From Sacculina carcini (taxonomy: Eukaryota; Arthropoda; Thecostraca; Sacculinidae): a stretch of 64,000 nt of DNA. The number at the start of each line of letters is the position of its first letter. Positions within the stretch are counted from its first letter, which is position 1. The stretch lies in the NCBI GenBank assembly GCA_916048095.2, contig OU696573.1, forward strand, positions 186,001 to 250,000, in the 5' to 3' direction. This document shows positions 1 to 59,496 of the stretch, one piece after another. Both the position numbers and the translations under genes were made by a program. The notes under the pieces were generated by a model. That model saw only the letters and a program-made list of their open reading frames with translations, was not told the DNA's origin and ran no database searches.

Positions 1-961
1 CGCAACGCAGCGCTTTTCTCGGCTTGCACGCGAGATAACTCCTGTCGCACCTTCACGACGGCGCAATCAAATGGACACACAAGGGCAATATAGAGGAAAT
101 TCATGCTGGACACAAGCATGCACACAATATGCAGCCATACAGCGTCTAGCTCATTATAATTGATTGCTATGCCGATTTATGCCATGTCATACATTTTATG
201 CCAATTTACTCTATGAACCAAACTGAACCGGGCGGTGTGTGTGTGTTGAGAAAGTGACCACAAATAACCCGTCCAATTACTGTACAATTATGTTCTGTTG
301 AGGTTCAAATAGTATATTTTCAATCGTCTTCCATTATATGTTTTTTTATATTTGATTGCTGACTTGTGTGTGTGTATTACTGGTGTTTGACGTGATATTG
401 TGGGACAGTGCATGCATAGCTGGTAATATGCCTAGTAACTGATCGTGTCAGCGAAGAGAGGTGAGAAAAGAAAGATACATTTTTCAGCTCCTGGTCGAGG
501 TTGAGAATCTGTGAGTTGAGCGAGGTTTCGCGCGCCTGAGACTCAGACAAAATGCTCTCCTCCTGCTCGATGCCCGTGCGTGTTGACAGCTCGTGCGTGC
601 TATGAAACTTGGTCAGAGCCTGTTTTCGTCACAAACACACACACACATACACACACAAATATGCACACGGAAGAAATCAATACATACACACACTTTGCCA
701 AACACCTACACAAATACACTCGCTCTCTCACAAACACACACGCACGGTCGTCTGTAGTGGTGGTACCTGGCGAGTAATGTTGAGTTCCTGCTGAGACAAC
801 TCGTAGGCGGCCTCTAGTTGACTGCATCTGGTCGCCAGCGACTCTTTCTCCTCGAGCAACGCCAGTCCTAGCTGGGCAGACTGCACCTTATCGCTGCTCG
901 TCTGGTCAAGCTCGCGCTTCAGCTGCTCGATGCGCGCCTGCAACTGCGTCGCATCGGCCAT
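1..961 (-). CDS. BICD: Bicaudal-D dynein adaptor, N-terminal part (partial)
   Basis: Bicaudal-D is a coiled-coil adaptor that links cargo to dynein-dynactin. Three exons are visible on the minus strand: 767-961 (start codon 959-961, 65 codons), 479-619 (47 codons) and 1-50, running off the window edge. All junctions are phase 0. The protein begins MADATQLQARIEQLKREL, continues with a GLALLEEKESL segment, and exon 2 reads ALTKFHSTHELSTRTGIEQE. These match the start of fly BicD and human BICD2 (LARELD..GL.LLEEK and TGIEQE) closely. The third exon (VRQELSRVQAEK) uses an AAG acceptor; a CAG 9 nt further in is an alternative. The first intron ends in a GT-rich tract before its acceptor. The start codon faces PRMT1 head-to-head. 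The identification is firm; the third exon boundary is less certain. Confidence 0.88.
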
Positions 962-1814
962 GACGCCGCCGTCAGTCGCTCACACAACACCGCTCACAAC
1001 AATCGCATCATCCTGTCAAGTCAACACGATGTTGCAGACAGACCATGACACCGAGCCACGCCACACCAACTGAAAAACTTGCATTCCACAGCCAGAAATA
1101 ACGGAGAATGCACTGAAGTTTGGCTTTCAAAACGAAACAGCCCCATTATCATTAATTATTGTTCTAATCTGATGTCAGACACTATCGGCTAGCTCACAAA
1201 CATGACTTTCTGTCGACATAAATTTAATACATGTTAAATAAGTTCAATACAACTTGAATATTCATGGATGTTTGGCTCCTGCAAGAAGGTCAACATATGA
1301 TAGAAGTGTTGTCTCATCTTTACAATTGAATTGTTGAAACAAAAAGGTAAAAACGCCGATCTACACAGACCAAGCAAGACCACTCACACAGTAAATGTGA
1401 GCACGCAAGTACTTAAATTACAAAGTCACTCACACTCATGCTGAGGAACACAAATATTTATTGAAAGACATCCCTTTAAATACATCCATAGAAACAGCAA
1501 CCACAACTACCACAGCCTCTCTCGAAACCAGCCGAGGTGCGATTTAACAATGATGCCAAACGTATAATAGACTCACAAATTCAGAAATGTGAGATTCCGA
1601 AAAGAATGAATCAAACATTTTTCATGAGGACTCGAGTGTGATAATAAGCGCTCCGTGTACCATTTTTACATTGATTTTGTAAAATATTTGATTAGGGTAA
1701 ACTTGGATAAATTTGCGACAATTTTGATTCGATTCAATTTGCGCCTGTGATAGTTTGCCACGCTGCACGTTTTCGTTTTAGTCGTGTGTTTCACAGGTTT
1801 TTAGGCTGTCTAAA
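962..1814. promoter_or_regulatory. Divergent promoter interval between BICD and PRMT1
   Basis: This 853-bp stretch separates two start codons that point away from each other (BICD at 961, PRMT1 at 1815), so it must hold both 5' UTRs and both promoters. No other gene is visible. I see no clear TATA box at a defined distance. That it acts as a promoter is inferred from position only. Confidence 0.4.
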
Positions 1815-4169
<2,355 letters not shown>

Positions 4170-5553
4170 TGTTCGCCACGCCGCCGACATTCACACGACA
4201 GTCTGCGATGTCGCCTGTGAATCGTCCAGGTGGTGCGTGTGTTCATAATTCGTTCTGCTAACTCATTATATGCCACTTTCCCGACCTCACAATGTATTAT
4301 TTCATATGATTTCCATATTTCACAATGCTGAGCTTCTCGTCAATGTGTTCTGTAATTTTTTTCTGTAATTTTTAATTTTAATTATCCATTAATATTCTTT
4401 TTTTCTGTTCTTTCATTGGCGTGATTTTTGCTATGTCTTGTGTGCCTCATTTGTACTTGGTGTTACAAGTGTGTTTGATAATTGGAGGTCGTGTTGTTTG
4501 TTTGATTCCAGGTATCACTCAGCTGAGATTTTCCAACACACTCGTCACAAACACACACACACACAATGAGTTTGGTAGGTACATATTTTGCGTTTCATCT
4601 GGCAGTTTTGAATGAGTCTTCATGTTTTCACTGTGTCGCGTGCGATCTCGCGTTATTGTATCGCTACTCTTAATTGGTCGTTGTGTCAGTGTATGTGCAT
4701 TACGAGGTATTTGTGCCGTCTGATCTTGTCAATACACACTGCTTTCTATGTTGTCTCCTTTGCTAATTAGGAGTTGGGATTGAGAGCTAATTGGGAGTTG
4801 TAATTTCTAATTCCTTTGCTAATGAACTAACAGTTTGAATATGCCTTTCACTAGGGTATTGTGTATATTAATTATAGACATGCACTTTGAAACAATTAGC
4901 TATTAGTTTTTGGTTTAGTTTAAATCAGTATTTTAATTTCATTTTATTTTGGTTTCTGTGCTTTAAAACTGGAATTCTTGATGGGTTAAGTGACAAATGA
5001 GCCGCTGATGTGGTTCAATGTGGTGGAGTGGAGTTTCGTCGTGCGAAATGTTGGAGTTTATTTGCTCTTTATGCTTTTCCTAAATATATAATACTTTTGA
5101 AGTAGTTTGAGCGGTGCGAGTTCCTCTAACGCATCCAATCGATTTAATGAGAATCGTGGAAGTAAGCGTACCATGCATATTGCGCACTCTATAGGACTTG
5201 CAGATAGAGGTAATGTCAGCTTAAATTAACAGTTATTTGGTACTGAAGTGTGATTTTTGAGCCGTGTGTATTTGTGAGTAGGGTCTTAGGCAATAATATT
5301 GTTCAAATGTTCGATTGCGATTGCTTGGAATGGTCGTGTGTATTGACATTTAACAATGTGCTGAATTGTTTGCCGGCACCAGTTTGTGGCATATTTAGTT
5401 ATTGAAAGAGAATATACGATTGTCGTGCGTTTTATTCAAGTGTCAGATTTATTGACACATGGCCACCGGCCTCGAACCGGCGATGTAATTATAAATGCAA
5501 TGTTTGTCGCGCCAGTGTGCTGTTGGTTGAGTCTGTGTTGAGGTTCAGGCGTG
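4170..5553. other. AT-rich intergenic interval, no gene seen
   Basis: This interval holds the PRMT1 3' UTR and the OXCT1 5' UTR. It has no long open frame and no clear repeat array. A tRNA-like B-box lies on the minus strand near 5467-5490 without a matching A-box. I see nothing else. Confidence 0.6.
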
Positions 5554-7146
5554 ATGAGTTGGGCGGGCCGTTTTCTTGGCTGGCGAGTGGTGGGGCGTCC
5601 TCGACTGCTGCATCCCTCGACAGCGGCGGCACGTCACCACTATCGTCACGTGAGCGTGTCATGTCCGCGACACGTACAGGTGGTGGCGAGTGTCGACGAG
5701 GCGGTGCGCGATATTGCCAGCGGCTCGCGAATTCTGGTGGGCGGTTTCGGACTGTGCGGCATTCCCGAGAATCTGATAGCTGCCGTGGTCCGCGCCGCAC
5801 CCACCGACCTCACCGTGGTCAGCAACAACGCGGGAGTGGAAAACTTCGGCCTGGGACTGTGGCTGCAGCGACGACTGGTGCGTCGCATGATCAGCTCGTA
5901 CGTCGGCGAGAACGGCGAGTTCGAGCGGCAGTACTTGAGTGGCGAGTTGGAGGTCGAGTTGACGCCGCAGGGCACGCTGGCCGAGCGATTGCGTGCCGGT
6001 GGCGCCGGAGTACCGGCTTTCTTCACGGCGACCGGCTGCGGCACGCTGGTGCAGCACGGTGGCGCGCCCATCAAGTACACGGCCGGTGACGAGCGACAAG
6101 TCGAGCTGCACAGCGGCGCCAAGGAGTCCCGCGACTTCGACGGTCGCGAGTACGTACTGGAGCACGCGATCACCGGTGATTTCGCGCTGGTGAAGGCGTG
6201 GCGGGCAGATCGCGCCGGCAACCTGCAGTTCCGTCACACGGCGCGCAACTTCAACCCGGTCATGTGTCGCGCCGCTCGCACAGCCATCGTCGAGGTGGAG
6301 GAACTGCTGCCGCCCGGCAATTACCTGCCGCCAGACCACGTGCACATGCCGGGCATCTTCGTGCAGCGACTAGTGCAGGGCAGTGGCTACGAGAAGCGCA
6401 TTGAGAAGCGGACGGTGCGGCGGACGACAGCAGGCGGGGCGGCCGGCACTCCTGCTGCGCTTCTGCGCGAGCGTATCGTGCGCCGTGCCGCCGCCGAGTT
6501 CACCGACGGCATGTACGCCAACCTGGGCATCGGCCTGCCCATGCTCGCCTCCAACTACATTGCACCGCACGTGCGAGTCACACTGCAGTCGGAGAACGGC
6601 GTGCTGGGTCTCGGGCCGTTCCCCGAGCCAGGCGCCGAGGACGCCGACCTCATCAACGCCGGCAAGGAGACGGTCAGCGTGGTGGACGGCGCGAGCTTTT
6701 TCGCCAGCGACGAGTCGTTCGCCATGATCCGCGGCGGGCACGTGCACTTGACAATGCTGGGGGGCATGCAGGTGTCTGCCGCCGGCGACCTCGCTAACTG
6801 GATGGTGCCTGGTCGTCTTGTGAAGGGCATGGGCGGTGCCATGGACCTGGTGGCCAGTGCCGGCACCAAGGTGGTCGTGTGTATGGAGCACCGTGCACGT
6901 GACGGCTCGTCCAAGGTGGTGACCGAGTGTTCGCTGCCACTGACAGGTCGCCGCTGCGTCAACACGCTCATCACCGAGCTGTGCGTGTTTGAGGTGCGAC
7001 ACGACGAGCCCGTCGGTCTCACACTGACTGAGCTTGCCGACGGCGTGACAGTGCAGCAAGTGGTCGAGGCGACCGACTGCGAGTTTCAGCTGGCAGACAA
7101 CATCAAGCCCATGTTGCAAGTGCCGCTGCCCTCCCATCAACACTGA
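5554..7146 (+). CDS. OXCT1: Succinyl-CoA:3-ketoacid CoA-transferase, mitochondrial, single exon
   Basis: SCOT moves CoA from succinyl-CoA to acetoacetate, the key step of ketone-body use in the mitochondrial matrix. The 530-aa frame starts at ATG 5554; a GTG one codon earlier is in frame but was not chosen. Residues 1 to about 38 are Arg-rich and basic with few acidic residues, as expected for a mitochondrial presequence. The subunit-A half carries [10 protein letters not shown] at residues 63-72; the subunit-B half carries ANLGIGLP and [10 protein letters not shown], whose Glu347 is the expected catalytic nucleophile. Length matches the family (about 520 aa). The gene has no intron and is much more GC-rich than its flanks, unlike PRMT1 just upstream, so an old retrocopy is possible, but the frame is intact. 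Confidence 0.96.
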
Positions 7147-7568
7147 ACGCCGGCGTGCGCTCAGGTTGCACTGTCATTGCTGGCGATTTGGCGACACTGC
7201 TGTTATTGTGATGTTGCCAGACAAGTGGAGAGTTAGTGGGTGTTGCATGTTTTCGTTATTGACACGATGAGCGGTGGTGGTGTTTTTGTACCGACATATT
7301 CACCTCGGCGTGTCAGCGTCTCATATGGTGCTATTTATTTTATCACAGAAGCACAGAATGATTGAGCTCGCTAATTATGCGCCACCACGGTTCCATGTCA
7401 TTGTGTTCGTGTGTGTTTGTGTGCATATGTACTTGCAAGGTGAACTGGTAGCTATCAAGGGAGTATAAAACATACATGGATGTACGATTTGATATACATA
7501 ATTTATTTTCATGCTGTTTGTTAATGCGTTAATGTTCGCCAAACTTGCCAACCACCGTGGTTTTCTGC

Positions 7569-7574
7569 AATAAA
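7569..7574 (+). terminator. Poly(A) signal AATAAA, likely OXCT1
   Basis: A canonical hexamer 423 nt after the OXCT1 stop, in the sense orientation. There is no other gene between 7147 and 8671; use of the site is inferred. Confidence 0.45.
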
Positions 7575-8671
7575 GGTGTTTTTCATGTAACTGTCCCCTG
7601 TAGTAAGGCACGTTGAAACACGAGGGATTGGTGCCTGTTGTGTGGGGGTCAGATCGACCGCTCATATTAGCGGCTTTGTGCACTAAGTGGTTTCTATGCA
7701 TGTCTCCGTGTTGAACCAGTTCTACCGGTCTCACTCATTTACTGTCCACGTGTTTGAGTGTCTCGTGGGCGAGTCAGCCACGCGTCCTTGCGCAACTTGT
7801 ACGACACATAAATCTACACACATACCGGCTAATAAACGTCTGGGCGGAAATGTGTCGTGTTTTAATATCACGCGACAAGACACGCTGAAAAACGAGACGC
7901 TAATTTCGAGATGAGAACTATTTACGTGTGCACAAACAGCTAACAATGCCCCGTGCAACAGTTACACCTGTATCTGCACGTCACGTGACCCAGAGGTTGT
8001 GCATATCTTTTGTGTGTGCAACATTGGAACTGAACTGACTGTCTGAATAACGTGTACTTGATGTAGGGATCGAATGATTCACTGTTGCCAGAATGAAAAG
8101 AACAGACACCCAGGTAGCTCGTGCGCAGTCGAACAGGTGCTTATGTCTACACGATTTCAAACCGCCCTCCTCACTGTGTAACGATTTGGTGACCGACTGG
8201 TCTATATGCCAGGGCAGAGCTGACTAGACACTGAGAAGCGAAGGAGTTATAACAGACAGTCTTGACAAGTTATTCAACAATCGCCTCATCAATGACTTCA
8301 GCATTGAACTCACGAACATGGCTCATGGATGTTATATTGTACGCGTGTGTTCCTGTTTTTAAACTGGTTTGAACAGCAGTGAAGTACGAGTGTTTGTATT
8401 ATCCCTTAATCAATGGCTCAATCATTGTGAATTTCGGATTGAATTGTTGAGAGTCGTGATGACAAGATCAATCATAACATTTCATATTCACCCCACCATC
8501 TGTCAACACCACCAATTGCCCAGACAGCAGTCACATTTGTACCCGCTACCTACATAACTAACCTTCACACACACACGCTCGCCCGCCCGCCGCCAGTGAA
8601 AGCCGAACTGCGCGCCACACTGAGCTGACACGACAGTGTTGGTGCGAGTGTCGAGGCGGTCGGCTGCGGTC

Positions 8672-9106
8672 ATGTGGGCGTGTTGGAGCACGGCGCTGCT
8701 GCTCGCGTCGTGGTGGTGCGGTGTGTGTCACGGTCTACTGTGCTACACATGCAAGCCAGACTACCAAGCAGCAGCGACGCATGGCGACTACGACGTCGAG
8801 CTGTTTCCCGTGTGCAGCGAGCTGCGGCACGCGCTGCGTTGGCGCTGGGACCTGCGCAGCTACATCCAGTACTGTCCGCCAGGCCGCGATGCCAGCTGCC
8901 AGCTCGAGCAACGGTACCCATTCTACGAGAAACGCACGTGCTCGTCCCGACGCCACTCGGGCTGCGACGGGGACTCGGAAGGTCACATGGCGTGTTATTG
9001 CACGGACGAGTTGTGTAATGCCGGGGTAATATCCGCGGTCCCACCCTCCACTCTCCTCGTGCTCGCGAGCCTGTTCTCCGTCGCAACTATTCTCTCGTGC
9101 AGCTGA
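8672..9106 (+). CDS. Ly6/three-finger, GPI-anchored cell-surface protein
   Basis: A small secreted-then-anchored protein of 144 aa starting at ATG 8672. It has a signal peptide (STALLLASWWCGVCHG), then a cysteine-rich domain opening with LLCYTC and closing with ACYCTDELCN, the CN motif that ends Ly6/uPAR domains. I count ten cysteines in the mature domain, as in invertebrate Ly6 proteins with the fifth disulfide. The C-terminus (residues about 122-144) is hydrophobic after a small-residue stretch, which suggests a GPI-anchor signal. Members of the family modulate nicotinic receptors and ion channels or act in cell junctions; this one's role is unknown. The whole frame is in one exon, whereas Ly6 genes usually have introns. 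Confidence 0.82.
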   Translation: MWACWSTALLLASWWCGVCHGLLCYTCKPDYQAAATHGDYDVELFPVCSELRHALRWRWDLRSYIQYCPPGRDASCQLEQRYPFYEKRTCSSRRHSGCDGDSEGHMACYCTDELCNAGVISAVPPSTLLVLASLFSVATILSCS

Positions 9107-11541: not shown

Positions 11542-11577
<36 letters not shown>

Positions 11578-12007
11578 AGCTAGCACATAGAAATATGACA
11601 AATCGTTCACGATGTTGTCTGCACTTACTGGAGACATGAAGCCAATCACACAATCATTTTGCACAGAACTGAACAAAACGCAGGCGCTAACACACAGAAA
11701 ACCGCTAAAACACTGAGCAATTGTGGCAATATAGAATTGCTTGACATCTAAAATGTGACGATGAAAACAATACGCGACTTATAATTAGCCGGGAAACTGG
11801 TTGAAGACCGAAATGACAGATTAAAACGGAAATGACAGGTTATCAGTGCTTTAGCAACCAATCCAAACATCCTGCAATGAACCTAGAAGAAGTAAAACTA
11901 GAATGGGACAAGCATGGTATTATTTAAGACACAATATAACAGACACTGCACGACGACACTGGTATTGTAAAAATCTCTCACTAGATGGTAGCACAGTGGT
12001 GATAATC
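9107..12007. other. Intergenic interval, no gene seen
   Basis: No convincing coding frame on either strand. It contains a (CA)n tract at about 11547-11577 and an unremarkable C-run near 10013. It must hold the 3' UTRs of the converging Ly6 gene and RIC3. Confidence 0.55.
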
Positions 12008-15000
12008 TCACTGATCTGCCGCCATACTGAGCTTATCATCGGCGCTATTACCGTCGCTTGCTCTGTTCTGCAATAACACATAATAGACGACAACACGTGC
12101 CCTAGTCACCACGGCACCACCACCACTCATATTCATATTCAACAGTCCACTGACAATGTGAACACATGTGTTACACAGTATTGGCATGTTGTGAACTGAC
12201 CTTATGTGCTGCTTGAGACGGTTGATTGTGTTCCTCCTGATCGCGTGCTACAAGTGACTGAGAGGTGTCCACTCCATCACCACTGATACCTCCATCACAT
12301 TTGTTGTCTGGGACCGTGACACACACACACACACACATGCACATAATATACCAGCCAGACAGAGAGACCAGAAAGGCACTCATTCACGCTGGACACAATG
12401 AGGTGAGAGAGAGTTAGTGACAATTCAACTTGCACACAAACACAGACAACAACGCGTCCACCAACCAACCTGCTCCTCCAACAACAGGATCTTCACTGCA
12501 CGCGCACTCCGGTGCAGAGTTGCCAGATTGTAGTTGCTTGCTGTTGTTGACACGTTCACGGTGTTTGTCAGTGATGCCAGTTGGTTTATTACCAGTGTCC
12601 TCATTCATTAAATCAGCCCGGTTCTGCAGACAAAGTGATCGTCTGTATCAGTGAATATTAAACTAAAACGAGCCGAGATCATGGCTACTCGACATATCAA
12701 TCATCGGACGGTAAATGATTGGATGATTGGATGATTGGGTGACGTGCACGTGCATATATGTTGTCACGCTGACACATGAAGATTGTCAAGTTAGGTGGAA
12801 AAATAGCACTTGTCATAAAATAAGCATTATTACGTCCACAGCACATAAAAAACACACATATAGACATAATAAAACACGACACCACTGACACTGTTAAACC
12901 AGCTCGTCGGCGTGTTAGCCAGGTGGACAGCGAGCGAGGCAGGTAAAAGCAGAGGAATACGTGACCGGACAGAACACACAATCAACATGCTGACACCGAC
13001 CAACGGCGCAGATGATTCTTTCAGCCGCCGTCTAGGAGGCGCCACCGCACCGACCGCCGGCGATACTTGCACCTCGATGCGTGCCTGTATGTGCGCGTGC
13101 TGGCGTGACCCGGTCGACTGCATGTAGTGCAGAGTAAGGGAGCGAGAAGGTGGACGCTGCTCTGTCCCGGCGACACAGGGCACAAACTGACTGTCCACCC
13201 GTCTATTACTGACTGCTGTGTCTCGTGCACTATCACATGAAGCACCACTGCCATACGTCCAGCCAACACCGTACTGCTCACCAGACTCACGAGCATTGTG
13301 TTGCTCACCAGACTCACGAGCACCGTGCTGCTCACCAGACTCACGAGCATTGTGCTGCTCACCAGACTCACGAGCACCGTGTTGCTCACCAGACTCACGA
13401 GCACCGTGTTGCTCACCAGACTCACGAGCATTGTGTTGCTCACCAGACTCACGAGCAGCGGTCACTTGTTCAACACCTTCATGTTGATGTTTGTCGCGAG
13501 TATGACAATATTGTGAGTCCGACTGGCATTTTGACAGCTGATGTTCGACTGGAAGACTCTGTTCGTGTGGCTGATAATGATACTGTTGTTGTTGTTGACT
13601 GGGGTGTTGCAGTGCAGCATGTTGATCATGTTGTCGGTCATGTTGATGATGCAGTTCTTGCTGCTCTGATGCGTGAGGATCGTCTGGTGATACGCCTGTT
13701 TCTCCGTCACTCACACTCAACGCAACATGACCAACACCAGTCGGCCCATCATCCACCACATCATGATGTGCCTGATCCGTGGGCAAGTGGTCCACATCAA
13801 CAATCTCGGACACCTCAGCACCAGTCTCTGACGGCAAGGACTCTGCTCCTTCATCATCATCATCACCATCATCCTTGTTAGCAGCGGTCGTCACCAGGCC
13901 AGCACGAGGCGTGTCATCCAGGCAGGTGCAGAGTGGCTGAGACACGCTGTTGGCAGACTGGTCGTTTAATTGAGCCGCGGTCGTCGAGATGGCGCCACCA
14001 TCCAGCACACACTGTCGTCGTGACAACAGATGTACGACAGACAACACCAGCGATACAGTGACAGTACAAACACGCCAGCATATCAACACGAAATACAGAC
14101 TCATAATATAAAACTGTGCTGCACTGAAACTACACACGGACAATACAAGTGGAGTGTTGTGCTGAACTAGTGCACCTCGCTGGCGCACACAAACAGTACC
14201 TGATCAGCATCAGTATCAGCAGCAGCAGCATCATTCGCAGGAGGAGGAGGAGGCGAGCAGGACAACTGAGCAGATACTGAGCCCAGCTGCTTCATTATCA
14301 TCTCCATGGCCATCTCTGTCTCGGCCAGACGCTGCTTCAAATCCTCTATCTCCACATCATCTGACACACACATACACACACACATACACACACACAGATA
14401 TACGACCGTGATTCAACACGCTACCGTCAAGACAACACACACACACGAACACATACATACAGTCATATAATGACTAACCATTGTCTGGTGCTTGTGTAGT
14501 AGTACGGACTTCAACAGAGCGCTTGGAAACTGTACACACACATATATACACCCACGGGTTTGAGGATGACAGTGTTAGTGAGGCGTGCAATTATTGTTAG
14601 TCGAGGCAGAGAATAGCAGCAGCGAAAGTCCAGCAACTAGACTGGTGGAGATCAAACAACTACAATCATTCAGCCAATTACATGTCGCAACAGATATATT
14701 AAGTCAACACGAACAGTACAGACTGTTCTGGACTAAAACTCACAGATAAGCCGCGCAAGAACGAGACAGTGTGAGAACGAAACACTAAGAAGATATAGAT
14801 AAAATAAGATAGACTGAAGAGCAGAGAATATGAGAGAGAGAGAGAGCAGATAATTGAGGCGATTGCTGTGTCAGCGCTGATAGAAAACGTTCCCTCATAA
14901 TCATGTGTTAATCTACTAGATCAGATGACAGTGAGAAGCAGTGCTACTCCACATCGACTGATACGTCTGTGTTATACGGGAGATTACCAGTGGGCTGAGC

Positions 15001-18000
15001 CGAGGTTGTGTCGGTCGGTGGTGGATTATCTGCAGCTTGTGTGGTCGACTCAGTGCCAGCACGTGCCTCATCACTGACAATACTGCCAGCGTCGCTGTTG
15101 TTACAGTAGGAGACGCGTTTGTGAGAGCCGGCGACACTGCCACGCTCCACACCACCAGTATCAGTGCATGATTGGCGGTGCATGACACGTGACCCGTGAC
15201 CCAGGTCACCGGGGTCACGACAGCGTTGATCCCCACTCACTGGGCCGCTGCGACGAGTCACCACCTGCCATCACAATGCCAGCCAGTATAAACATTCACA
15301 GTCGTACGATACATGACAATAACACACATACACGAGCCAGCCTAACACTAGCCTATGTGCTGCACACATTGGTGACGTCACGAGCGCCCCACATAACAAG
15401 CAAGTGGCACGAGGTGTCACAGTGGGACATCACCTTGGCTACTGTGTAGAAGAAGAACACGACGATGGCCACGCTATAGATGGGCATGATGATGGACAGC
15501 GGGCCCGAGCTCTTGGACTGCGGCTGCACCATGGCTCCCGGACCTCCCGGAGAAGGCCGCGAACTTGGCATTGGACCAGGCTGCACACAAACACACACAC
15601 ACAGACATACACACAGACGTTGAGATAATGGCGAGAGAGATGAGGACAGTAACACGAGACTGATGGTGATGATGAGAGAGATGATGAGAGAGATGATGAC
15701 AGTAACACGAGACTGATGGTGATGATGAGAGAGATGAGGACAGTAACACGAGACTGATGGTGATGATGAGAGAGATGATGACAGTAACACGAGACTGATG
15801 ATGATGATGAAAGAGGTGATGACAGTAACACGATACTGATGGTGATGATGAGAGAGATGATGACAGTAACACGAGACTGATGATGAGAGAGATGAGGACA
15901 GTAATACGATACTGATGGTGATGATGAGAGAGATGAGGACAGTAACACGTGACTGATGGTGATGATGAGAGAGATGAGGACAGTAACACGTGACTGATGG
16001 TGATGATGAGAGAGATGACAGTAATACGATACTGATGGTGATGATGAGAGAGATGACAGTAATACGATACTGATGGTGATGATGAGAGAGGTGATGACAG
16101 TAACACGTGACTGATGAGAGAGATGATGACAGTAACACGAGAATGATGGTGATGATGAGAGAGATGATGACAGTAACACGAGACTCATGATGAGAGAGAT
16201 GAGGACAGTAATACGATACTGATGGTGATGATGAAAGAGGTGATGACAGTAACACGATACTGATGGTGATGATGAGAGAGGTGATGACAGCAGAAGGATG
16301 ACTGATGGTGATGATGAGAGAGATGATGACAGTAACACGAGACTCATGATGAGAGAGATGAGGACAGTAATACGATACTGATGGTGATGATGAGAGAGAT
16401 GACAGTAATACGATACTGATGGTGATGATGAGAGAGGTGATGACAGTAACACGTGACTGATGAGAGAGATGATGACAGTAACACGAGAATGATGGTGATG
16501 ATGAGAGAGATGATGACAGTAACACGAGACTCATGATGAGAGAGATGAGGACAGTAATACGATACTGATGGTGATGATGAGAGAGATGAGGACAGTAACA
16601 CGTGACTGATGGTGATGATGAGAGAGATGAGGACAGTAACACGTGACTGATGGTGATGATGAGAGAGATGACAGTAATACGATACTGATGGTGATGATGA
16701 GAGAGATGACAGTAATACGATACTGATGGTGATGATGAGAGAGGTGATGACAGTAACACGTGACTGATGAGAGAGATGATGACAGTAACACGAGAATGAT
16801 GGTGATGATGAGAGAGATGATGACAGTAACACGAGACTCATGATGAGAGAGATGAGGACAGTAATACGATACTGATGGTGATGATGAAAGAGGTGATGAC
16901 AGTAACACGATACTGATGGTGATGATGAGAGAGGTGATGACAGCAGAAGGATGACTGATGGTGATGATGAGAGAGATGATGACAGTAACACGAGACTCAT
17001 GATGAGAGAGATGAGGACAGTAATACGATACTGATGGTGATGATGAGAGAGATGACAGTAATACGATACTGATGGTGATGATGAGAGAGGTGATGACAGT
17101 AACACGTGACTGATGAGAGAGATGATGACAGTAACACGAGAATGATGGTGATGATGAGAGAGATGATGACAGTAACACGAGACTCATGATGAGAGAGATG
17201 AGGACAGTAATACGATACTGATGGTGATGATGAGAGAGATGACAGTAATACGATACTGATGGTGATGATGAGAGAGGTGATGACAGTAACACGTGACTGA
17301 TGAGAGAGATGATGACAGTAACACGAGAATGATGGTGATGATGAGAGAGATGATGACAGTAACACGAGACTCATGATGAGAGAGATGATGACAGTAACAC
17401 GAGACTGATGATGAGAGAGATGAGGACAGTAACACGATACTGATGGTGATGATGAGAGAGATGAGGACAGTAACACGAGACTGATGGTGATGATGAGAGA
17501 GATGACAGTAATACGATACTGATGGTGATGATGAGAGAGATGACAGTAATACGATACTGATGGTGATGATGAGAGAGGTGATGACAGTAACACGTGACTG
17601 ATGAGAGAGATGATGACAGTAACACGAGAATGATGGTGATGATGAGAGAGATGATGACAGTAACACGAGACTGATGGTGATGATGAGAGAGATGATGACA
17701 GTAACACGAGACTGATGATGATGATGAAAGAGGTGATGACAGTAACACGATACTGATGGTGATGATGAGAGAGGTGATGACAGCAGAAGGATGACTGATG
17801 GTGATGATGAGAGAGGTGATGACAGTAACACGTGACTGATGGTGATGTTGAGAGAGATGAGGACAGTAACACGAGACTGATGATGAGAGAGATGAGGACA
17901 ACAATAGGATGACTGACCCGGGCAATACGGTCGAGGGTGCGCATGCCTTGTTGTGGTGGCGAGGGGCGGGCCGACTGATGTGCCTGTTGAGCTGCATGAG

Positions 18001-22227: not shown

Positions 22228-23267
22228 ACGAGCGAGCGCGAAGTTGTCATATGTAATCAAACTTTGTCGTAAATGTATTTGTCTGCGTGCATGGGCAAAG
22301 TTTTCTGCTAAATTATAAGAGGGCATATGGCACGTGTCACGTGCCATGCTGGGCATTGACATAATTCGGCATAGTCTCATTCGCGGCAGGAAGGATTGGG
22401 CTACCCAACAAACAAAAACGCATGTTAATCGGACCTATGGTTCCAGAGATATAAGCCTCTGAAAAACGGGTAAATTTTTTTTTCGAAAAAGTAGGAGGGC
22501 ATTCGGGACGTGCCACGTGCCACAGTGAGCACTGACATAATTCGGCATAGTCTCATTCGCGGCAGAAAGCATGAGGCTACCCAACAAAAAAAACGCATGT
22601 TAATCAAACTTATGGTTCCAGAGATATAAGCCTCTGAAAAACGGGTAAAAAGTGTTTTTAGAAAAAGTAGGAGGGTATTTGGGACGTGCCACGTGCCACA
22701 CTGGGCACTGACATAATTCGGCATAATCTCATTCGCGGCAGGAAGGATGAGGCTACCCAACAAAAAAAACGCATGTTAATCAAACTTATGGTTCCAGAGA
22801 TATAAGCCTCTGAAAAACGGGTAAAAAGTGTTTTTCGAAAAAGTAGGAGGGCATTTGGGACGTGCCACGTGCCACATGGGGCACTGTCATGATTCGGCTT
22901 GGTTTCATCCGCGGCAAAAAGGATGAGGCTACCTAACAACAAAAAAAGCATGTTAATCAGACTTATGGTTCCAGAGATATAAGCCTCTGAAAAATGGGTA
23001 AAAAGTGTTTTTCGAAAAAGTAGGAGGGCATTTGGGACGTGCCACGTGCCACAGTGGGCAATGACATGATTCGGCTTGGTCTCATCCGCGGCAGGAAGGA
23101 TGAGGCTACCCAACAAAAAAAAATGCATGTTAATCGGACTTATGGTTCCAGAGATATAAGCCTCTGAAAAGCGTGACCACGGCCGGCCGGCGGGCCGGCC
23201 GGCGAGCCGCTCATACTCATTTTTCTAGTAACACCAAGTATGAACTCGCTCGCTATCGCTCGCTCGT
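22228..23267. mobile_element. Dispersed element with 176-bp internal tandem units, copy 1
   Basis: Five units of about 176 bp; the anchor GTTCCAGAGATATAAGCCTC recurs at 22440, 22615, 22791, 22968 and 23145. The block ends in a GGCCGGCC-rich hairpin (about 23181-23207) and then CGCTCGCTCGT at 23257-23267, which is the inverted complement of ACGAGCGAGCG at 22228. The 11-bp terminal inverted repeats suggest a transposable unit carrying a satellite-like core. The same succession of units recurs at 32215-33090. Minus-strand open frames in the units are not conserved as protein. Confidence 0.7.
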
Positions 23268-23705: not shown

Positions 23706-25447
23706 TCAGTTATCATCATCGGAAAGGTCAAAGACGAGCTTGCTAGCGACGGCGGCCAGTCGAGGAGACCGGCGCACAACACGCCGCCTACTGCCCGCCA
23801 CGTCATCACATGACGTCATCAGAGCCGACCGCTCATCACCGCAGTGTGACGTCATCGGACTGTGTTGTCGCTGCGGACTAGCGACCGAATCAGAGTGGAA
23901 AATGGCCGACAAATTCCTGCCATAACAACCAGCACACACACACACTGATATATACAATACAGGATCCAGTCTGCACAAGTCATACAATCGTCGTCACAAC
24001 TGAAAAAACCAAACACTGATGCTAAATAATCGCACACACGGCATGCAGAGCGGATGTTCATGACTGAAAACACCGCGCAGTGACCCAGGTGCGTGCGACA
24101 GTGCCAGGTACCTGGGAGTACACTTGTTGGCGAGTGAGGAGGGGGGTCGACGGCCGCCAGTAACGCTAGATGAAGGAGTGTTGCAATATTCCTGCTCATC
24201 GCCGCTGCTCAGCGAGTCCAGGCACCGATCCACGCTAGGCAACACACTGTCGTCTGCAGCACTTGTGTTGCACGAGCGCGAGCGGCGACCACGTGCAGAA
24301 CTAGAGGTCACATTGCGCAGAAACAACATGCTGGGCGTGGAAGGAGCCTGTTCTCTCGCCTCCTCGCCAGAACACGTCACATCAGCACAAGATACGTCCT
24401 CATCTGACACACACACACACATTATCACAAACACTGACAAACATGCACAAACAAGATCGAGGAATGTTCGGCACGTGCAATGTTCCCGTGCCACTCACCT
24501 GTGTCACTGCAGTTAAATGAGACTGCTGCAGAGGTCAGAGGTCGTCGTGACGTCGGCGTGTCGTTGACCTGCAGGTCACGTGACTCGTGACCCCAGCTCG
24601 CCTTGTACGGCGTGCTTTCAGCCACCGGGGACATGGCGGCTTCATCGACCGCCACGCACGACATCGCCGAGGAAGAGGGGCCCGACGGAGCGCACGACAC
24701 AGACGATGAGAGCGTGTTCAGCGACCAACTGAGCACGTTCAACACGGGCAGAACAACCCGCAGTAGCACGTGAAACACAGCCTCGAGCCAGTCCCGAGCC
24801 CGCCAACACTGCAACACCAGCCAGCAATAACACACCACCTCACTATATATGTGTGTGATAACTGCTAGTGCGAGATGTTCGCCGCTCACACGCACTTATA
24901 ACTCAACCAGCAGACAAAGCCATACTTGAGTCGACCGACAAACTGTTATAGATGAGCATAAAGCCAAGCATAGAGGATATGCCAAAACAGTAGAAATATT
25001 AATAAACAACTGTGAGTGCCGCCCGCCATTCTACCACAAATCACAGTTTATCACTGATATCCCTGGCAGTTACAGACCGAGGCTCGCAGCAATACGTCGA
25101 GTCTCCGCCGCAACAGGCGTCGTCTCAGAGCCGGCACTTGCAACAGTTGAGCAGCGCTGGCACGCAGTGTGGGAGCAGGCTGCAACATCAGTCTCAACAC
25201 GTGACACAGTTCAGCTGACAGTTGACCGGTCAGCGCCGCCGGCAACTCGTGACCCGAGCGCAGCACGTGCCAGCCGTCGGCGCCGGGGGGCACATCGAGG
25301 TCGGTGGACAGCTCGAGCAGACTGACACCCAGCGAGAAAAGGTCGGCGGCCGGCGAGAAAGTGCCAGTCATTAGTTCTGGAGCCAGGTAGCGAGGATCTC
25401 CCTCCACCAAGTCAGCAGCCCAACTGGCGCTGCATGACTGATACACA

Positions 25448-25484
<37 letters not shown>

Positions 25485-28400
25485 CAATGAAGACATACCG
25501 CTCACTAATACATCAGATGCAGTGAGAAATTCTCGAGTAATCGTAATTGTCGCGACAGTGAATGACACATGACAAATGACACATGACAAATGACACATGT
25601 ACGATGGACAGCATGACAACTGTGTCAGACAGCAGGCAGATGGGAGATGGAGCGACGTGGCACATGTGACTGCTCACATTATCCTGAACATCAGCGACCA
25701 GGCCAAAATCTCCCAGCTTGCAGAAACCCTCGCGAGAGATGAAGATGTTCTCCGGCTTGATGTCGAGATGCATGAGTCTGTTGGAGTGAAGATGTTGCAC
25801 CGCCTGAGATCAACATCAGCAACAGAAGTCGTTCATCACAAACAGAACATCACAAAACGTTCTCTTAACACAACACAACCGGCAAATTAGGTCTCACTAC
25901 ACCACAAACTAGGTCTCAGTACACCACAAACTAGGTCTCAGTACACCACAAACTAGGTCTCAGTACACCACAAACTAGGTCTCACTACACCACAAACTAG
26001 GTCTCAGTACACCACGAACTAGGTCTCACTACACCACAAACTAAGTCTCACTACACCACAAACTAGGTCTCAGTACACCACAAACTAGGTCTCACTACAC
26101 CACAAACTAGGTCTCACTACACCACAAACTAGGTCTCAGTACACCACAAACTAGGTCTCACTACACCACAAACTAGGTCTCAGTACACCACAAACTAGGT
26201 CTCACTACACCACAAACTAGGTCTCAGTACACCACAAACTAGGACTCAGTACACCACAAACTAGGTCTCACTACACCACAAACTAGGTCTCAGTACACCA
26301 CAAACTAGGTCTCAGTACACCCACAAACTAGGTCTCAGTACACCACAAACTAGGTCTCAGTACACCACAAACTAGGTCTCACTACACCACAAACTAGGTC
26401 TCAGTACACCACAAACTAGGTCTCAGTACACCACAAACTAGGTCTCACTACACCACAAACTAGGTCTCAATACACCACAAACTAGGTCTCACTACACCCC
26501 AAACTAGGTCTCAATACACCACAAACTAAGTCTCAGTACACCACAAACTAGGTCTCACTACACCACAAACTAGGTCTCAGTACACCACAAACTAGGTCTC
26601 AGTACACCACAAACTAGGTCTCACTACACCACAAACTAGGTCTCACTACACCACAAACTAGGTTTCAGTACACCCCAAACTAGGTCTCAATACACCACAA
26701 ACTAAGTCTCAGTACACCACAAACTAGGTCTCAGTACACCACAAACTAGGACTCAGTACACCACAAACTAGGACTCACTACACCCCAAACTAGGTCTCAC
26801 TACACCACAAACTAGGTCTCAGTACACCACAAACTAGGTCTCAGTACACCACAAACTAGGTCTCACTACACCACAAACTAGGTCTCAATACACCACAAAC
26901 TAGGTCTCACTACACCCCAAACTAGGTCTCAATACACCACAAACTAAGTCTCAGTACACCACAAACTAGGTCTCAGTACACCCCAAACTAGGTCTCAATA
27001 CACCACAAACTAGGTCTCAATACACCACAAACTAAGTCTCAGTACACCACAAACTAGGTCTCAGTACATCCCACTTTTCCACTACAATTTCATGTTCTAG
27101 TGCAACAACTTGAACGATACATGACAGCGCAAACACTTGATCACATTAAACTAATACCAACTAGATATCATTGACACTTGCAATCATTCAACAACAGCCG
27201 TTCATAACACTGCCAATTACTAAGCCGAATCTCATAAAATCCATACTGCTTCATACTAAAACACCAAGTTTATACGTGCAAACTCACCCACCTCAGAACT
27301 ACAGACAAACAACACATTACCAACACACACACAGACAGACAGACACCACATTACCAACAGACACAGACAGACAGACAGACACCACATTACTAGCACAGAC
27401 AGACAGACACCACAGTACCAGCACACACAGACAGACAGACAGAGATACGCCACAGTACCAGCAGCAGGTCGACCATGTAGTTCCACACCAGGGCCTCGCT
27501 GAGACAGTGAGATCTCTCACAAACGTCGGCCAGCGAGCGACGACACAGCTCGGTCAACATGTACAAGTGCCCCGCCTCCTCCCAGGCCGTGTAGAAGCGC
27601 ACACAATGCCGGTGTGATGGCAGTCGCTCCTGCCGACGAACCTCCTCCAGTCTCCGTCTCCTGCATGTGCACACACACACACGCATGTGAGTGAGACGCG
27701 ATAGCCGACCTGTCAGTGTACGTGTGAGTTATTTTTACACAAGTGTGATACTAACGAAGCGAGAAAGACAAAAAGTTGAACAGCCTGGATAAACCATAGA
27801 GAAAACAACGACGGAACAAGAATGAACAGAAGAAAGACAGACCTGTCTGCGTCAGATTTGAACGGTTGTCGCGACTGTTTGACGGCGTACATCCTGCCGT
27901 CCAGCTTACTGCGCACGCTGAAAACGTTGCCGAAACAACCCGAGCCAATGAGCTGCTTGTGCTCGAAACACTGGTCGAGAAACGAGTGTTGCTTGGCGCT
28001 GTCATAATGACTGTTCGACAAAAACGACACTGTCAACACACACACACACATACACAAGCACGCAATCAGCTGATTAACTCGACAGATTGACTGCCGAAAT
28101 TGAGCCAAGATGACCAGCAGACATACACGTGCGTGTAGGCGCGTGTTGGTGAGATGAGTGGAGTGAGTGAAGACGCAGCACGTGACCAGCACGTGACATA
28201 TTATCCTGACTACCTGACATATTATCCTGACTACCTGACATGTTGTCCTGACTAAATGACATATTGTCCTGACTACCTGACATGTTATCCTGACTACCTG
28301 ACATGTTATCCTGACTACCTGACATGTTATCCTGACTACCTGACATGTTATCCTGACTACCTGACATGTTATCCTGACTAACTGACATGTTATCCTGACT

Positions 28401-29069
28401 ACCTGACATGTTGTCCTGACTACCTGATATGTTGTCCTGACTACCTGATATATTGTCCTGACTACCTGACATGTTGTACTGACTACCTGACATATTGTCC
28501 TGACTACCTGACATATTATCCTGACTACCTGACATTGTCCTGACTACCTGACATGTTGTCCTGACTACCTGATATGTTGTCCTGACTACCTGATATATTG
28601 TCCTGACTACCTGACATGTTGTCCTGACTACCTGACATGTTGTCGGCGTCGTTCTTGAACGACACGGCCATCGGCTTGGCGAGCAGTCGCGACCGCACCT
28701 TGCTCGTCAACATCGTGCTCCTCGTGCGAGCCACGTGCGGCGACGGTGGCGGACGCAACTTGCGCTCAGTCTGCGCGCGCTCCTGCACACAAACACACAT
28801 AAACGCACAATGGGACAACAATGGGCAACACAGATTAGCAAGAGTTGTCACTTCCCTGTAACAGGAAGCGAATAAGTATTAAGTAAGAAACAGCATGAAT
28901 CTGATGTATTGAAGCACTTCCCCTTTCAATAAAACAAAATAATATAGCCTAAGGAATAAGGTGAAAAATTGGTAACGTTTCAAGTCCCTAGCGTTACCTT
29001 TTTGGTGGAGAGCACATTGACACGATGGTCAAAAGTTGGCAGCGGTCGCGCGGGCTTGCTGGGTTCCAT
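23706..29069 (-). CDS. PKMYT1: Membrane-associated Cdc2-inhibitory kinase Myt1
   Basis: Myt1 is an ER/Golgi-bound kinase of the Wee family that phosphorylates Cdk1 on Thr14/Tyr15 and holds cells in G2. Exons (minus strand): 28998-29069, 28632-28782, 27843-28029, 27459-27660, 25678-25803, 25078-25437, 24499-24808, 24112-24403 and 23706-23916 (636 aa; all phases agree). The kinase domain has the G-loop IGSGCFGNV (102-110), Lys125 in YAVKQS, catalytic Asp218 in [11 protein letters not shown] at Asp236 and [10 protein letters not shown]. After it come a membrane-type segment ([20 protein letters not shown]), a Ser/Thr-rich tail and PRNLSAIF, matching the C-terminal PRNLLSLF of vertebrate Myt1. 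The donor of exon 2 could lie in any of several copies of a 21-bp array. Confidence 0.93.
25885..27070. repeat. 22-bp tandem array in PKMYT1 intron 4
   Basis: More than fifty copies of a 22-bp unit (ACTAGGTCTCAGTACACCAC on the plus strand, plus two more bases), with G/C and A/G variants at a few fixed positions. It lies in the intron between 25804 and 27458. There are no unique spacers, so it is not CRISPR-like. Confidence 0.97.
27315..27462 (-). repeat. Tandemly repeated 5' splice site, PKMYT1 intron 4
   Basis: On the minus strand the donor CTG|GTACTGTGG (GT at 27458) is followed by four further copies of the same motif plus a (CTGT)n spacer, with GT at 27418, 27390, 27354 and 27320. The later copies read GTAATGTGG. 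The copies are 28-40 bp apart. Confidence 0.85.
28195..28640 (-). repeat. 21-bp array of donor-like units, PKMYT1 exon 2/intron 2
   Basis: About twenty-one copies of a 21-bp unit; on the minus strand each contains TCAG|GTAGTCAGGA. The exon 2 donor (28632) is the first copy. Reading through adds the seven residues GSQDNMS per unit in frame. One unit near 28531-28549 lacks two bases and shifts the frame to a stop. Confidence 0.93.
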
Positions 29070-29723: not shown

Positions 29724-30746
29724 ATGTTTTCCAAGCTCTTGGCGACGCGTTGTGCATCACCTCTGTTTGGTGCGTGCAGGAGTTTCTCTTCTACTGCTTC
29801 GCGGAATCACAGGGTTGCTGTACTGGGCGCTAGTGGTGGAATAGGACAACCTTTGTCGCTTCTTCTCAAACAATCTCCGCTCATTTCTCAACTGTCCCTG
29901 TATGATATTGTCAATACTCCTGGTGTGGCTGCCGATCTCAGTCATATCGAATCAGCTTCGAAAGTGGTAGGATATGTGGGGTCCGACCAGCTGAAATCCT
30001 CGCTGGAGGGATGTGATGTTGTCGTCATTCCCGCTGGTGTTCCCAGGAAACCTGGTATGACTCGTGATGACTTGTTCAACACGAACGCTTCAATTGTCAG
30101 AGATTTGTGTAAGGCGGCGGCGCAAGTTTGTCCCAAGGCCTGTGTTTGTATCATCGCCAATCCGGTCAATAGCACTGTGCCAATTGCCTCCGAGGTGTAC
30201 AAGAAGGCTGGCGTCTACGACCCGAAGCGGATCTTCGGTGTGACCACTCTGGACGTGGTGAGAGCCAACACTTTCATAGCCGAACTGAAGCAGCTGAATC
30301 CTGCCGACGTCAACTGTCCTGTGATTGGCGGTCATGCTGGCATCACTATAATCCCACTGATTTCGCAGTGCACTCCCGCCGTGCAGTTTCCCGACGACCA
30401 GCTGGCCAAACTGACGGAGCGCATCCAGGACGCAGGCACTGAGGTAGTGAAGGCCAAGGCAGGTGCCGGGTCAGCCACCTTGTCGATGGCGTACGCGGGC
30501 GCCAAGTTCACGTTCTCGCTGCTGCGCGCCATGAACGGCGAGCGAGTGGTCGAGTGCACCTACGTCAAGTCTGACGTCACAGACAGTCCCTACTTCTCAA
30601 CCCCGTGTGTGCTCGGCAAGAACGGAGTCGAGGAGAATCTCGGTCTGGGGAAACTGTCCGCGTATGAGACAGAGCTGGTCGCGAAGGCCCTCCCCGAACT
30701 GAACGCCTCGATCAAGAAGGGAGAAGCGTTTGTCGCCAATAACTGA
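29724..30746 (+). CDS. MDH2: Malate dehydrogenase, mitochondrial, single exon
   Basis: NAD-dependent malate dehydrogenase of the TCA cycle and malate-aspartate shuttle, 340 aa. Residues 1 to about 28 ([10 protein letters not shown] and on, rich in Arg and Ser, no acidic residue) form a mitochondrial presequence. The Rossmann motif GASGGIGQP is at 35-43. The substrate loop VPRKPGMTR holds Arg108 and Arg114, and the catalytic His204 is in IGGHAG. Length and sequence agree with animal MDH2 throughout (human is 338 aa). No intron is present, unlike the neighbouring PKMYT1 and CELSR genes. ATG 29724 is preceded by an in-frame stop (TAA at 29718-29720). Confidence 0.97.
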
Positions 30747-30891: not shown

Positions 30892-32214
30892 CTAACCGGT
30901 GATATATCAAGTTTCTTTTTAGTTGCAGTCGAGAAGAGCGTTGTGCACCAATCCACGTGATTATCGCGCCATATCTCATCAAATTCAAATGTATATTGTT
31001 ATAGAACTAGGTACATTTTTCAGTCTGATAATGATAATTGTTCACTGTTTAAAAACTGCACGTGGTGATATGGAATGGTTTATTATTGCGAATGTTTCAC
31101 GTACACACAAGCACACACGCACGCAGACGCAGGGTTGAAAACAAAAACGCACTAAAAATGACAAACATGACACGATAAGACGGCGAGAAAACACTGAGAT
31201 ACACTGAGATCAGTAAATGATGGACGAACTGCGGCCTCGAACTGGTGAAGTCACCAGACACAACAGCCATCTCTGCATAACAACAACATATATATTAGCT
31301 ATAGCGCATTTCAATGACAAACGCGCGAGATGATACAGATTAAGTGGGTAGAATAATAGCAAGTAGAAAAGCTCGCACACAGAACCAGGTATAAAAGTGC
31401 ACGAGTGTGAACATTAAGAAACTATTCCAAGACACAAAATAACATGGACACAAACAAGACTAATATACAATTGAACAAATAAATGAGCTATGAGCAGGTA
31501 TCATATAAGAAACAGTGACACATGGAGTGGAGAAACCAAGAGTACAGTGATAGTGATAATCTCAAGATTATACACAAGTGGGATCAGAGAGAGGACTGAA
31601 AAATAAAAATAAAATATCGCAGAGGTTTGGCGTGAGAGATTATATAGAAGCATATATAGGAGTCAGTGAATGTGTTAACGGATCAAAAGAAAGAAAAAAG
31701 ATATTTTAATAGCTAATAGGAGAATGATCGATACGACGTAGATGAAATGATATAAGGAGGAAGAGTTGAATAATCTTGGGCCAAAGAAAGAGGACTTCGC
31801 AGACCAGGTTGATTCGTTGGTGACTCGAGGTCAGATAAGAGGAAGTGAAATACGGGAAGAAGAATTGTCAGAGAGAGAGATAGGAGGTGAGAGAGATATA
31901 TAAGTCGATCTGGACCATGAATTAATTAGTAGATGATGCAACAAAGACGGTGGTGGATTCGTGGAATGATAAGTAGCCAGTGAAGCTGATAAAGATGAGA
32001 AGAGGTATGACCACATGGAGAAGGATGAAGTATAAAGCGACAGGACTGGTTTAAACACACACACACACATGCATACACACACGTGCATACACGTATGTAC
32101 GATCACACATTAACTTATTCTCCCCTCATAAACAACGCCAGAAATACAAAATATAATAATACAACATAACAAACATAAAGAAGAAGAAGAAGCAAGAAGC
32201 AAACATAAAGCAAA
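30892..32214. other. Intergenic interval, no gene seen
   Basis: AT-rich and purine-rich DNA without a supported coding frame. A short (CA)n tract is at about 32055-32070. Confidence 0.5.
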
Positions 32215-33090
32215 AAGGATTGGGCTACCCAACAAACAAAAACGCATGTTAATCGGACCTATGGTTCCAGAGATATAAGCCTCTGAAAAACGGGTAAATT
32301 TTTTTTTAGAAAAAGTAGGAGGGCATTCGGGACGTGCCACGTGCCACAGTTAGCACTGACATGATTGGGTTTAGTCCCATCCCCGGCAGAAAGCATGAGG
32401 CTACCCAACACAAAAAACGCATGTTAATCGGACTTATGGTTCCAGAGATATAAGCCTCTGGAAAACGGGTAAAAAGTGCTTTTCGAAAAAGTAGGAGGGT
32501 ACTTGGGACGTGCCACGTGCCACACTGGGCACCGACATAATTCGGCATAGTCTCATTCGCGGCAGGAAGGATGAGGCTACCCAACAAAAAAACGCATGTT
32601 AATCAAACTTACGGTTCCAGAGATATAAGCCTCTGAAAAACGGGTAAAAAGTGTTTTTCGAAAAAGTAGGAGGGCATTTGGGATGTGCCACGTGCCACAT
32701 GGGGCACTGTCATGATTCGGCCTGGTTTCATCCGCGGCAAAAAGATGAGGCTACCTAACAACAAAAAAGCATGTTAATCAGACTTATGGTTCCAGAGATA
32801 TAAGCCTCTGAAAAATGGGTAAAAAGTGTTTTTCGAAAAAGTAGGAGGGTATTTGGGACGTGCCACGTGCCACAGTGGGCACTGACATAATTCGGCTTGG
32901 TCTCATCCGCGGCAGGAAAGATGAGACTACCCAACAAAAAAAAATGCATGTTAATCGGACTTATGGTTCCAGAGATATAAGCCTCTGAAAAGCGTGACCA
33001 CGGCCGGCCGGCGGGCCGGCCGGCGGGCCGCTCATACTCATTTTTCTAGTAACACCAAGTATGAACTCGCTCGCTATCGCTCGCTCGTAA
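32215..33090. mobile_element. Dispersed element with 176-bp internal tandem units, copy 2
   Basis: Same five-unit block as 22391-23269: anchor GTTCCAGAGATATAAGCCTC at 32264, 32439, 32614, 32789 and 32965, then the GGCCGGCC hairpin and CGCTCGCTCGT terminus. Order and unit-specific variants match copy 1 unit by unit. The left part with the other inverted repeat is missing, so this copy looks 5'-truncated. Confidence 0.7.
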
Positions 33091-33203: not shown

Positions 33204-33228
33204 AAACACACACAAACACACAAACACA

Positions 33229-33272
<44 letters not shown>
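33204..33272. repeat. (CA)n microsatellite downstream of CELSR
   Basis: A CA tract with a few CAAA interruptions on the plus strand, in the intergenic gap between repeat copy 2 and the CELSR stop. Confidence 0.9.

Positions 33273-33275
<3 letters not shown>

Positions 33276-33535: not shown

Positions 33536-59496
<25,961 letters not shown>

Follow-up and report, generated by a model that had tools for sequence, protein, structure and literature searches.

In a canonical metazoan intron, the polypyrimidine tract is read by U2AF2 and the AG by U2AF1. In the window, i.e., the whole 64,000-nt stretch of DNA analysed here (bases 186001-250000 of contig C6, from a genome of 264 Mb in 43 contigs), many introns carry a GT repeat directly upstream of the AG, which raises the question of whether this lineage merely tolerates such repeats or uses UG as a routine element of the 3' splice site. 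A sequence-only reading of the window had counted GT tracts by hand at about 32 of 54 acceptors, i.e., at most of them, and had left room for both answers, the former through microsatellite growth at intron ends and the latter perhaps through a TDP-43- or CELF-type reader. Species differ in how long and how strong the tract is, all organisms examined have a pyrimidine bias near the intron 3' end, and the variation described so far in the accessible text of that source concerns length and strength, not kind (PMC3033335). Routine use of UG tracts as acceptors in an animal was the subject of no paper among the titles and abstract openings searched, which covered few subscription papers.

Gene models and acceptors with a TG run

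We modelled 49 acceptors in five window genes (BICD, PRMT1, RIC3, PKMYT1 and CELSR) with a small purpose-written gene finder, whose acceptor score consists of the base before the AG and the first exon base only and is blind to all sequence upstream of NAG. Its donor score follows MAG|GTRAGT, and its coding content was trained on three long ORFs of the window, its own predicted exons and both U2AF2 copies. The PRMT1 model received three corrections by hand, at the ends of exons 3 and 4 and at the last acceptor; by homology the last exon starts at 4086 behind a TG-rich acceptor, and the position 4122 given by the gene finder was wrong. The corrected protein aligns with the solved PRMT1 structure over residues 25-355 with zero gaps. 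The PKMYT1 model shows three small gaps against its solved kinase domain, one of them of five residues, and large parts of it also align to P0121 and to two barnacle proteins; it has about ten residues more than its relatives between exons 1 and 2, where the first donor is probably misplaced. The closest named relatives of PKMYT1 in the protein search were Pollicipes (63% over 51% of the query) and two proteins at 54 and 60% whose name, cut off as '[Am', we read as Amphibalanus. P0001 and P0121 scored higher than the named relatives across the U2AF2 and PKMYT1 searches, and the closest named relatives in both point to a barnacle-like crustacean as the source animal.

The Pfam check of CELSR covered the first 1116 residues of its C-terminal model and gave the domain order LamG, EGF, laminin EGF, HRM, GAIN, GPS and 7TM, with the GAIN match under its cut-off, and the RIC3 domain was found in the first 380 residues of the RIC3 model, the part checked. 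A Pfam search of the BICD model gave no family, and it is provisionally called BICD after the sequence-only reading. The last exons of RIC3, the CELSR tail and the N-terminal exons of CELSR are supported by coding content. Within the CELSR span, on the same strand and between exons 49630-49837 and 54887-55146, sits an intronless 1294-aa ORF (50683-54564, -) with four TSP1 and two LamG stretches.

We defined a TG run as an uninterrupted TG/GT stretch of at least 6 nt within -30..-4 of the acceptor. Such a run stands before 30 of the 49 window acceptors (29 before the PRMT1 acceptor was corrected), in line with the hand count, and measured at least 12 nt at 18/49 before that correction. It occurs at 1/1 acceptors in BICD, 5/7 in PRMT1, 2/7 in RIC3, 7/8 in PKMYT1 and 15/26 in CELSR. 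In PRMT1 (+), where the model fits the solved structure, the runs are 7 nt (last 30 nt of the intron at 2002..2031), 19 nt (2667..2696) and 11 nt long (2963..2992), and at 3262..3291 the whole of -30..-4 is TG repeat (array 3235-3288); the homology-corrected last acceptor (4056..4085) has a run of 14 nt. BICD (-) has 13 nt at 620..649, and RIC3 (-) has 13 nt at 15581..15610, in the Pfam-checked part, and 11 nt at 14361..14390. In PKMYT1 (-), the acceptors at 28783..28812 (7 nt) and 28030..28059 (15 nt) are backed by relatives and those at 27661..27690 (13 nt) and 25438..25467 (17 nt) by both the solved structure and relatives, and further runs lie at 24809..24838 (6 nt), 24404..24433 (15 nt) and 23917..23946 (13 nt). 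The CELSR series (-) starts in the N part with an intron ending in AAG (57476..57505, 11 nt), an EGF-like exon (55820..55849, 17 nt) and 55147..55176 (16 nt). It continues with a LamG exon placed by Pfam (49838..49867, 13 nt), a run of 24 nt at 48293..48322 (array 48295-48417), a Pfam-supported EGF exon where -30..-4 is wholly TG repeat (47357..47386), and 46749..46778 (20 nt), 44343..44372 (12 nt), 43912..43941 (7 nt) and 42235..42264, where 6 nt lie at the far end of the 30 nt. The remaining ones are 41862..41891, again wholly TG repeat in -30..-4, 40822..40851 (6 nt), two 7TM exons supported by Pfam (39738..39767, 19 nt; 37560..37589, 7 nt) and the last exon (33694..33723, 7 nt).

The enrichment of TG runs is specific to acceptors, confined to the sense strand and above the intron background. 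No CA run of at least 6 nt was found in -30..-4 of the 49 window acceptors, and GT/TG exceeded CA/AC dinucleotides at 45 of them, with the reverse at 3 and a tie at 1 (sign test p 1e-10), so the orientation of the repeat follows the gene, as had been proposed from the letters. The comparison with donors and intron centres came out the same way, since donor flanks of the same introns (+7..+33) held a TG run in 5/45 and a CA run in 5/45 cases and intron middles in 4/36 and 1/36. Internal YAG pseudo-acceptors of the same introns had a TG run at 41/532 and a CA run at 25/532 sites, which gives an odds ratio of 18.9 for TG runs at the window acceptors (p 3e-18). The base composition of -30..-4 in the window was A.13, C.11, G.35 and T.40. 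Per 27-nt site, GT/TG, CA/AC and YY dinucleotides numbered 13.6, 1.8 and 3.5 at window acceptors, 5.9, 4.3 and 5.6 in intron middles, and 5.8, 4.1 and 6.0 at the 532 pseudo-acceptors; there is thus no pyrimidine enrichment before the AG in the window, YY lying below its value in intron middles. In the 44 modelled introns, TG4+ runs numbered 28 in the 2508 nt of intron ends (-60..-4; 11.2/kb), 38 in the 19353 nt of the interior (2.0/kb) and 7 in the 2640 nt of intron starts, and CA4+ runs 1, 26 and 4, respectively. An almost sixfold density at intron ends over the interior, in one orientation, means that tolerance alone is insufficient and argues for use.

A count over the whole genome was not relied on. 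The pattern (GT)7-N0-3-YAG gave 21280+13038 starts against 4680+6437 for its reversed control, and long runs are counted repeatedly in it and GTGTGTCAG-type minisatellites add in. At face value, (AC)7-N0-3-YAG exceeds the GT count (24110+15599; own reversed control 16880+27250), and it is unfair as an orientation control because a single substitution within an AC run creates CAG.

Acceptors outside the window and acceptors without a repeat

An independent set of acceptors was taken from myosin genes. The genome search with the Pfam myosin head gave 82 exon-wise matches, of which 74 were listed, 60 exon starts examined and 48 counted, spread over 10 loci on 7 contigs; the acceptor was taken as the YAG nearest to the profile match, and coding content was not used. 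Slices with an unclear boundary were left uncounted, eight of them short (L061, L064, L066, L067, L071, L073, L074, L083) and four long (L037, L042, L047, L049), and several of these twelve hold GT repeats. Among the counted sites, at least L038 may have been assigned to the wrong AG. All 20 long slices were kept for the donor control.

TG runs were present at 23/48 myosin acceptors and CA runs at 0/48, and GT outnumbered CA at 40 sites and was outnumbered at 4 (p 2e-8). The excess of GT over YY was weak (above at 32 sites, below at 15; p.02), since YY reached 5.35 per site, which is near the intron background and not under it. Against pseudo-sites, which were those of the window and not of the myosin introns, the odds ratio for TG runs was 11 (p 8e-12). 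The acceptor enrichment therefore extends beyond the window, unevenly between genes: TG-run sites made up 11/14 on contig C4, 4/8 on C19, 4/12 on C36, 1/6 on C23, 0/4 on C35, 1/2 on C20 and 2/2 on C21, so that the C23 and C35 loci together had a TG tract at 1/10. Paralogues also differed at the same intron position (152|153, 2/6; 378|379, 2/7; near 325, 4/6 with a TG tract), which shows that tracts come and go. One myosin exon (profile about 378-436) occurs in tandem copies at C23:545260 and 547195 and at C36:4878646 and 4879577; this suggests mutually exclusive exons, which we take to resemble those of arthropod muscle myosin.

When both sets were pooled, a TG run of at least 6 nt was present at 53/97 acceptors and a CA run at 0/97. 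With -60..-4 considered, 59/97 had a TG run, which at 39 of these 59 ended fewer than 10 nt before the YAG. Introns ended in YAG at 96/97 and in AAG at 1/97 acceptors, where the window's 48/49 are the only test of YAG since the 48 myosin sites were picked as YAG; C stood at -3 in 83/97.

We compared the 44 acceptors that lack a TG run with 466 repeat-free pseudo-sites. These acceptors had more GT/TG (6.7 vs 5.1, p.001), G (7.0 vs 5.9, p.04) and T (9.9 vs 8.8, p.02) and less CA/AC (2.4 vs 4.0, p 2e-4) and A (5.2 vs 7.0, p 6e-6), so perfect microsatellites are not the sole basis of the shift towards U and G. There was no gain in YY at these 44 sites (6.4 vs 6.4 at the pseudo-sites, p.87). TT was raised (3.05 vs 1.97 per site, p.009), which is a remnant of an ordinary U-rich tract. 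The branch-point motifs YTNAY, CTRAY, TGAY and TAAY showed no clear positional peak in -63..-3; in introns with a long TG run, the branch A must precede the run. The intron starts are C-rich (C.31 and YY 7.7 per site in +7..+33).

U2AF2 and the competing explanations

U2AF2 is duplicated in this genome. Its two full-length intronless copies, A and B, stand head to head on contig C26 (421 and 412 bits; cut-off 310), and both match the solved human U2AF65 RRM1-2 and C-terminal domain, with RRM1, RRM2 and UHM encoded. Among the 120 relatives listed of 2098 matches, the closest named one is Amphibalanus amphitrite at 73%, followed by insects at up to 69%, and both copies differ from these 120 at near-invariant columns. 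A287S is found in both copies and in 1/120 of the listed relatives (P0041). N289H in RRM2 is likewise common to both; N289 is kept in 119/120 relatives listed, and the sole H289 among them belongs to P0004, whose grouping with copy A has 100% support. The RRM1-2 tree, built from 38 of the 120 listed relatives plus human, gives B a branch length of 0.88 and A one of 0.36 (shared with P0004) plus 0.22, compared with 0.07 for Amphibalanus, i.e., both copies are accelerated; the position of B has supports near 50. RRM1 and the aromatic RNP contacts are largely conserved in both copies. N289H could be common to both through convergence or through exchange between the copies. Asn289 in RRM2 of U2AF65 presumably contacts uracil. 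This contact is not named in the accessible text of the U2AF65 structure paper searched, and the term was absent from the literature search results. U2AF65 recognises the 5' part of the tract in a U-specific manner and tolerates C in the 3' part, and an AA interruption lowers its affinity about five-fold (PMC4786784, in part). U2AF1 seems to be single, with one close match on C21 that is split into three pieces and a relative at 36% on C18.

Between the U2AF2 copies (L035, L036), only 40-78 columns per 100-column block are identical upstream of their near-identical last ~290 nt, where the last full blocks share 99 and 100 and the shorter final one 93, a pattern indicative of gene conversion in the UHM part.

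We tentatively favour the reading that a UG-rich tract serves as the routine 3' splice-site tract and would be read by the lineage's own duplicated, fast-changed U2AF2 (N289H), a proposal for which nearly as much can be said as against it. The tract between the branch region and the AG would then be UG-rich instead of pyrimidine-rich in this barnacle-like lineage, A-poor, with U at roughly every second position, and would mostly end in CAG. The two U2AF2 copies with their fast-changed RRM1-RRM2 would bind it, and the loss of Asn289 in the U-selective RRM2 of both could let purine-interrupted UG tracts be accepted or preferred, while ready-made (GT)n microsatellites would supply or lengthen the tracts. 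We infer from the sequences that the tract would be needed for splicing and that U2AF2 would be its reader; the clearest protein change found lies in this tract reader itself, which was absent from the candidates named before. The data thus suggest that part of the splicing code may have shifted. The wider idea, that the lineage rewrote its 3' splice-site code, with the UG tract becoming routine, a duplicated U2AF2 changing its reading and (GT)n microsatellites being co-opted in step, is possible and is put forward with more reserve. If true, such a tract with G in place of C, combined with a changed U2AF2, would offer a direct test of the co-evolution of signal and reader, and it would show how microsatellites turn into functional sequence. 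Gene finders trained on pyrimidine tracts would probably misplace acceptors in such genomes. The 44/97 acceptors without a TG run and the raised TT there, the near-background YY of the myosin sites, the unevenness between genes, the largely conserved RNA contacts and the apparently single U2AF1, unlike Fritillaria, weigh against the favoured reading.

The described sites share with the canonical metazoan U2-type 3' splice site the GT-AG introns, the YAG end, intact U2AF2 genes, a U2AF1 match and a tract directly upstream of the AG, and differ in that G instead of C partners U in the tract and that YY lies under the intron background in the window and near it in myosin. Zebrafish AC...GT repeat introns, reportedly described by Lin et al. 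in Genome Res in 2016, are said to be spliced without the need of U2AF2. They likewise have GT repeats at the intron 3' end, but form a minority class, whereas about half of the acceptors read here carry a TG run. A close precedent for a changed U2AF2 is found in Fritillaria borealis, where duplicated U2AF paralogues accompany a new intron class and an altered RNA preference (PMC13326754, in part). Common to both animals are a duplicated and diverged U2AF2 and shifted 3' splice sites, and purine-interrupted tracts are mentioned for the 3'AC introns of Fritillaria; however, the terminal dinucleotides change there whereas the AG stays here, and U2AF1 is also duplicated there and apparently single here (same partial source, PMC13326754). 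The UG tract of CFTR exon 9 and the TDP-43-repressed cryptic exons also have (UG)n close to a splice site, but according to the accessible part of PMC13343711 they are repressed special cases, whereas here such tracts are frequent at conserved exons of ordinary genes.

A serious though rather doubtful competitor is that the tract requirement is relaxed under microsatellite pressure, acceptors being marked mainly by CAG, U2AF1 and exon definition; GT repeats would grow at little-constrained intron ends, and CA repeats would be purged since they bring A. GT/AC repeats are indeed very frequent (85 perfect tracts of at least 12 nt in 64 kb), and the prevalence of C at -3, the missing YY gain of the repeat-free acceptors as a group and the unlike tracts of paralogues at 152|153 and 378|379 all agree with it. 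However, tolerance would give background density at most, which the density at intron ends exceeds, and the repeat-free acceptors are also GT-shifted and A-poor. Of the two answers given by the sequence-only reading, routine use is supported by the sense- and acceptor-specific excess over background, found also on other contigs, whereas mere tolerance or growth of microsatellites at intron ends does not readily explain this excess and the absence of CA. We consider it unlikely that U2 snRNP is recruited by another UG-binding activator bound to the tract, be it TDP-43, CELF/Bruno, an RBM24/SUP-12 type protein or SF3B4. The UG repeats near more than half of the acceptors would suit such a protein, and the TDP-43 N-domain exceeds its Pfam cut-off at three loci (C29:895365-895583, C26:5886003-5886227 and C26:5886773-5886991), of which the two on C26 are head to head, as are both U2AF2 genes on the same contig; these candidate TDP-43 copies are known here by their N-domain match. 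TDP-43 binds UG repeats, but when bound close to splice sites it represses them (PMC13343711, in part); SF3B4 is a further candidate (PMC7408900, in part).

Two other explanations are much weaker. Bridging of a CA-rich intron start with a GT-rich end in place of U2AF2, as in zebrafish, is very improbable. The intron starts are C-rich, a CA run of at least 6 nt occurs at 4/20 myosin donors besides the 5/45 of the window, and the mean predicted 5'-3' duplex is stronger than the middle-3' one (-27.8 vs -24.3 kcal/mol); yet swapped 5' ends give -26.6 +/- 1.0, own vs middle reaches only p.09, and the U2AF2 genes are intact. An AC...GT class was tried and set aside because, among 35 introns, a 5' CA run occurred in 2/16 with a 3' GT run and in 2/19 without one (Fisher p 1), i.e., unlike in zebrafish, 3' GT repeats are not paired with CA repeats at the start of the intron. 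Hardly credible is an artefact of the gene finder, whose noncoding model penalises GT repeats within exons and could thus pull towards an AG that follows a non-coding GT repeat. An equal pull would be expected at donors, where TG and CA runs are equally few, the myosin acceptors were placed without coding content, and the PRMT1 acceptors agree with the solved structure and the PKMYT1 ones with relatives.

Repeats, intronless genes and donors

Besides the GT/AC tracts, perfect dinucleotide repeats of at least 12 nt in the window comprise one AG and no CT or AT. The density of GT/AC repeats relative to the window was about a tenth in a 200-kb stretch of C1 and about four tenths in a 60-kb stretch of C2 (L009-L034), which were used for repeat density only, with no acceptors taken; judged from translations, both hold many long ORFs reading like transposon genes. 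The arrays at 22319-23170 and 32210-32991, with units of 176 and 175 bp, look alike and are each followed by a GGCCGGCCGGCG short repeat, and other large arrays of the window lie at 15680-17886, 25883-27068 and 48540-49618.

Several conserved genes are intronless, i.e., a CoA-transferase, a lactate/malate dehydrogenase family gene, the two U2AF2 copies and one myosin head (5554-7146 (+) and 29724-30746 (+) in the window, C26:1032223-1036658 and C7:1241414-1243426), as if retrocopies had replaced spliced genes. C stands at +3 of the donor in 31% of the 45 window introns and 15% of the 20 myosin donors, and GTCAGT is as common as GTGAGT among window donors (5 each). In intron 4 of PRMT1, a GC donor at 3113 (+) (CAG|GCACTC) fits by length-exact homology.
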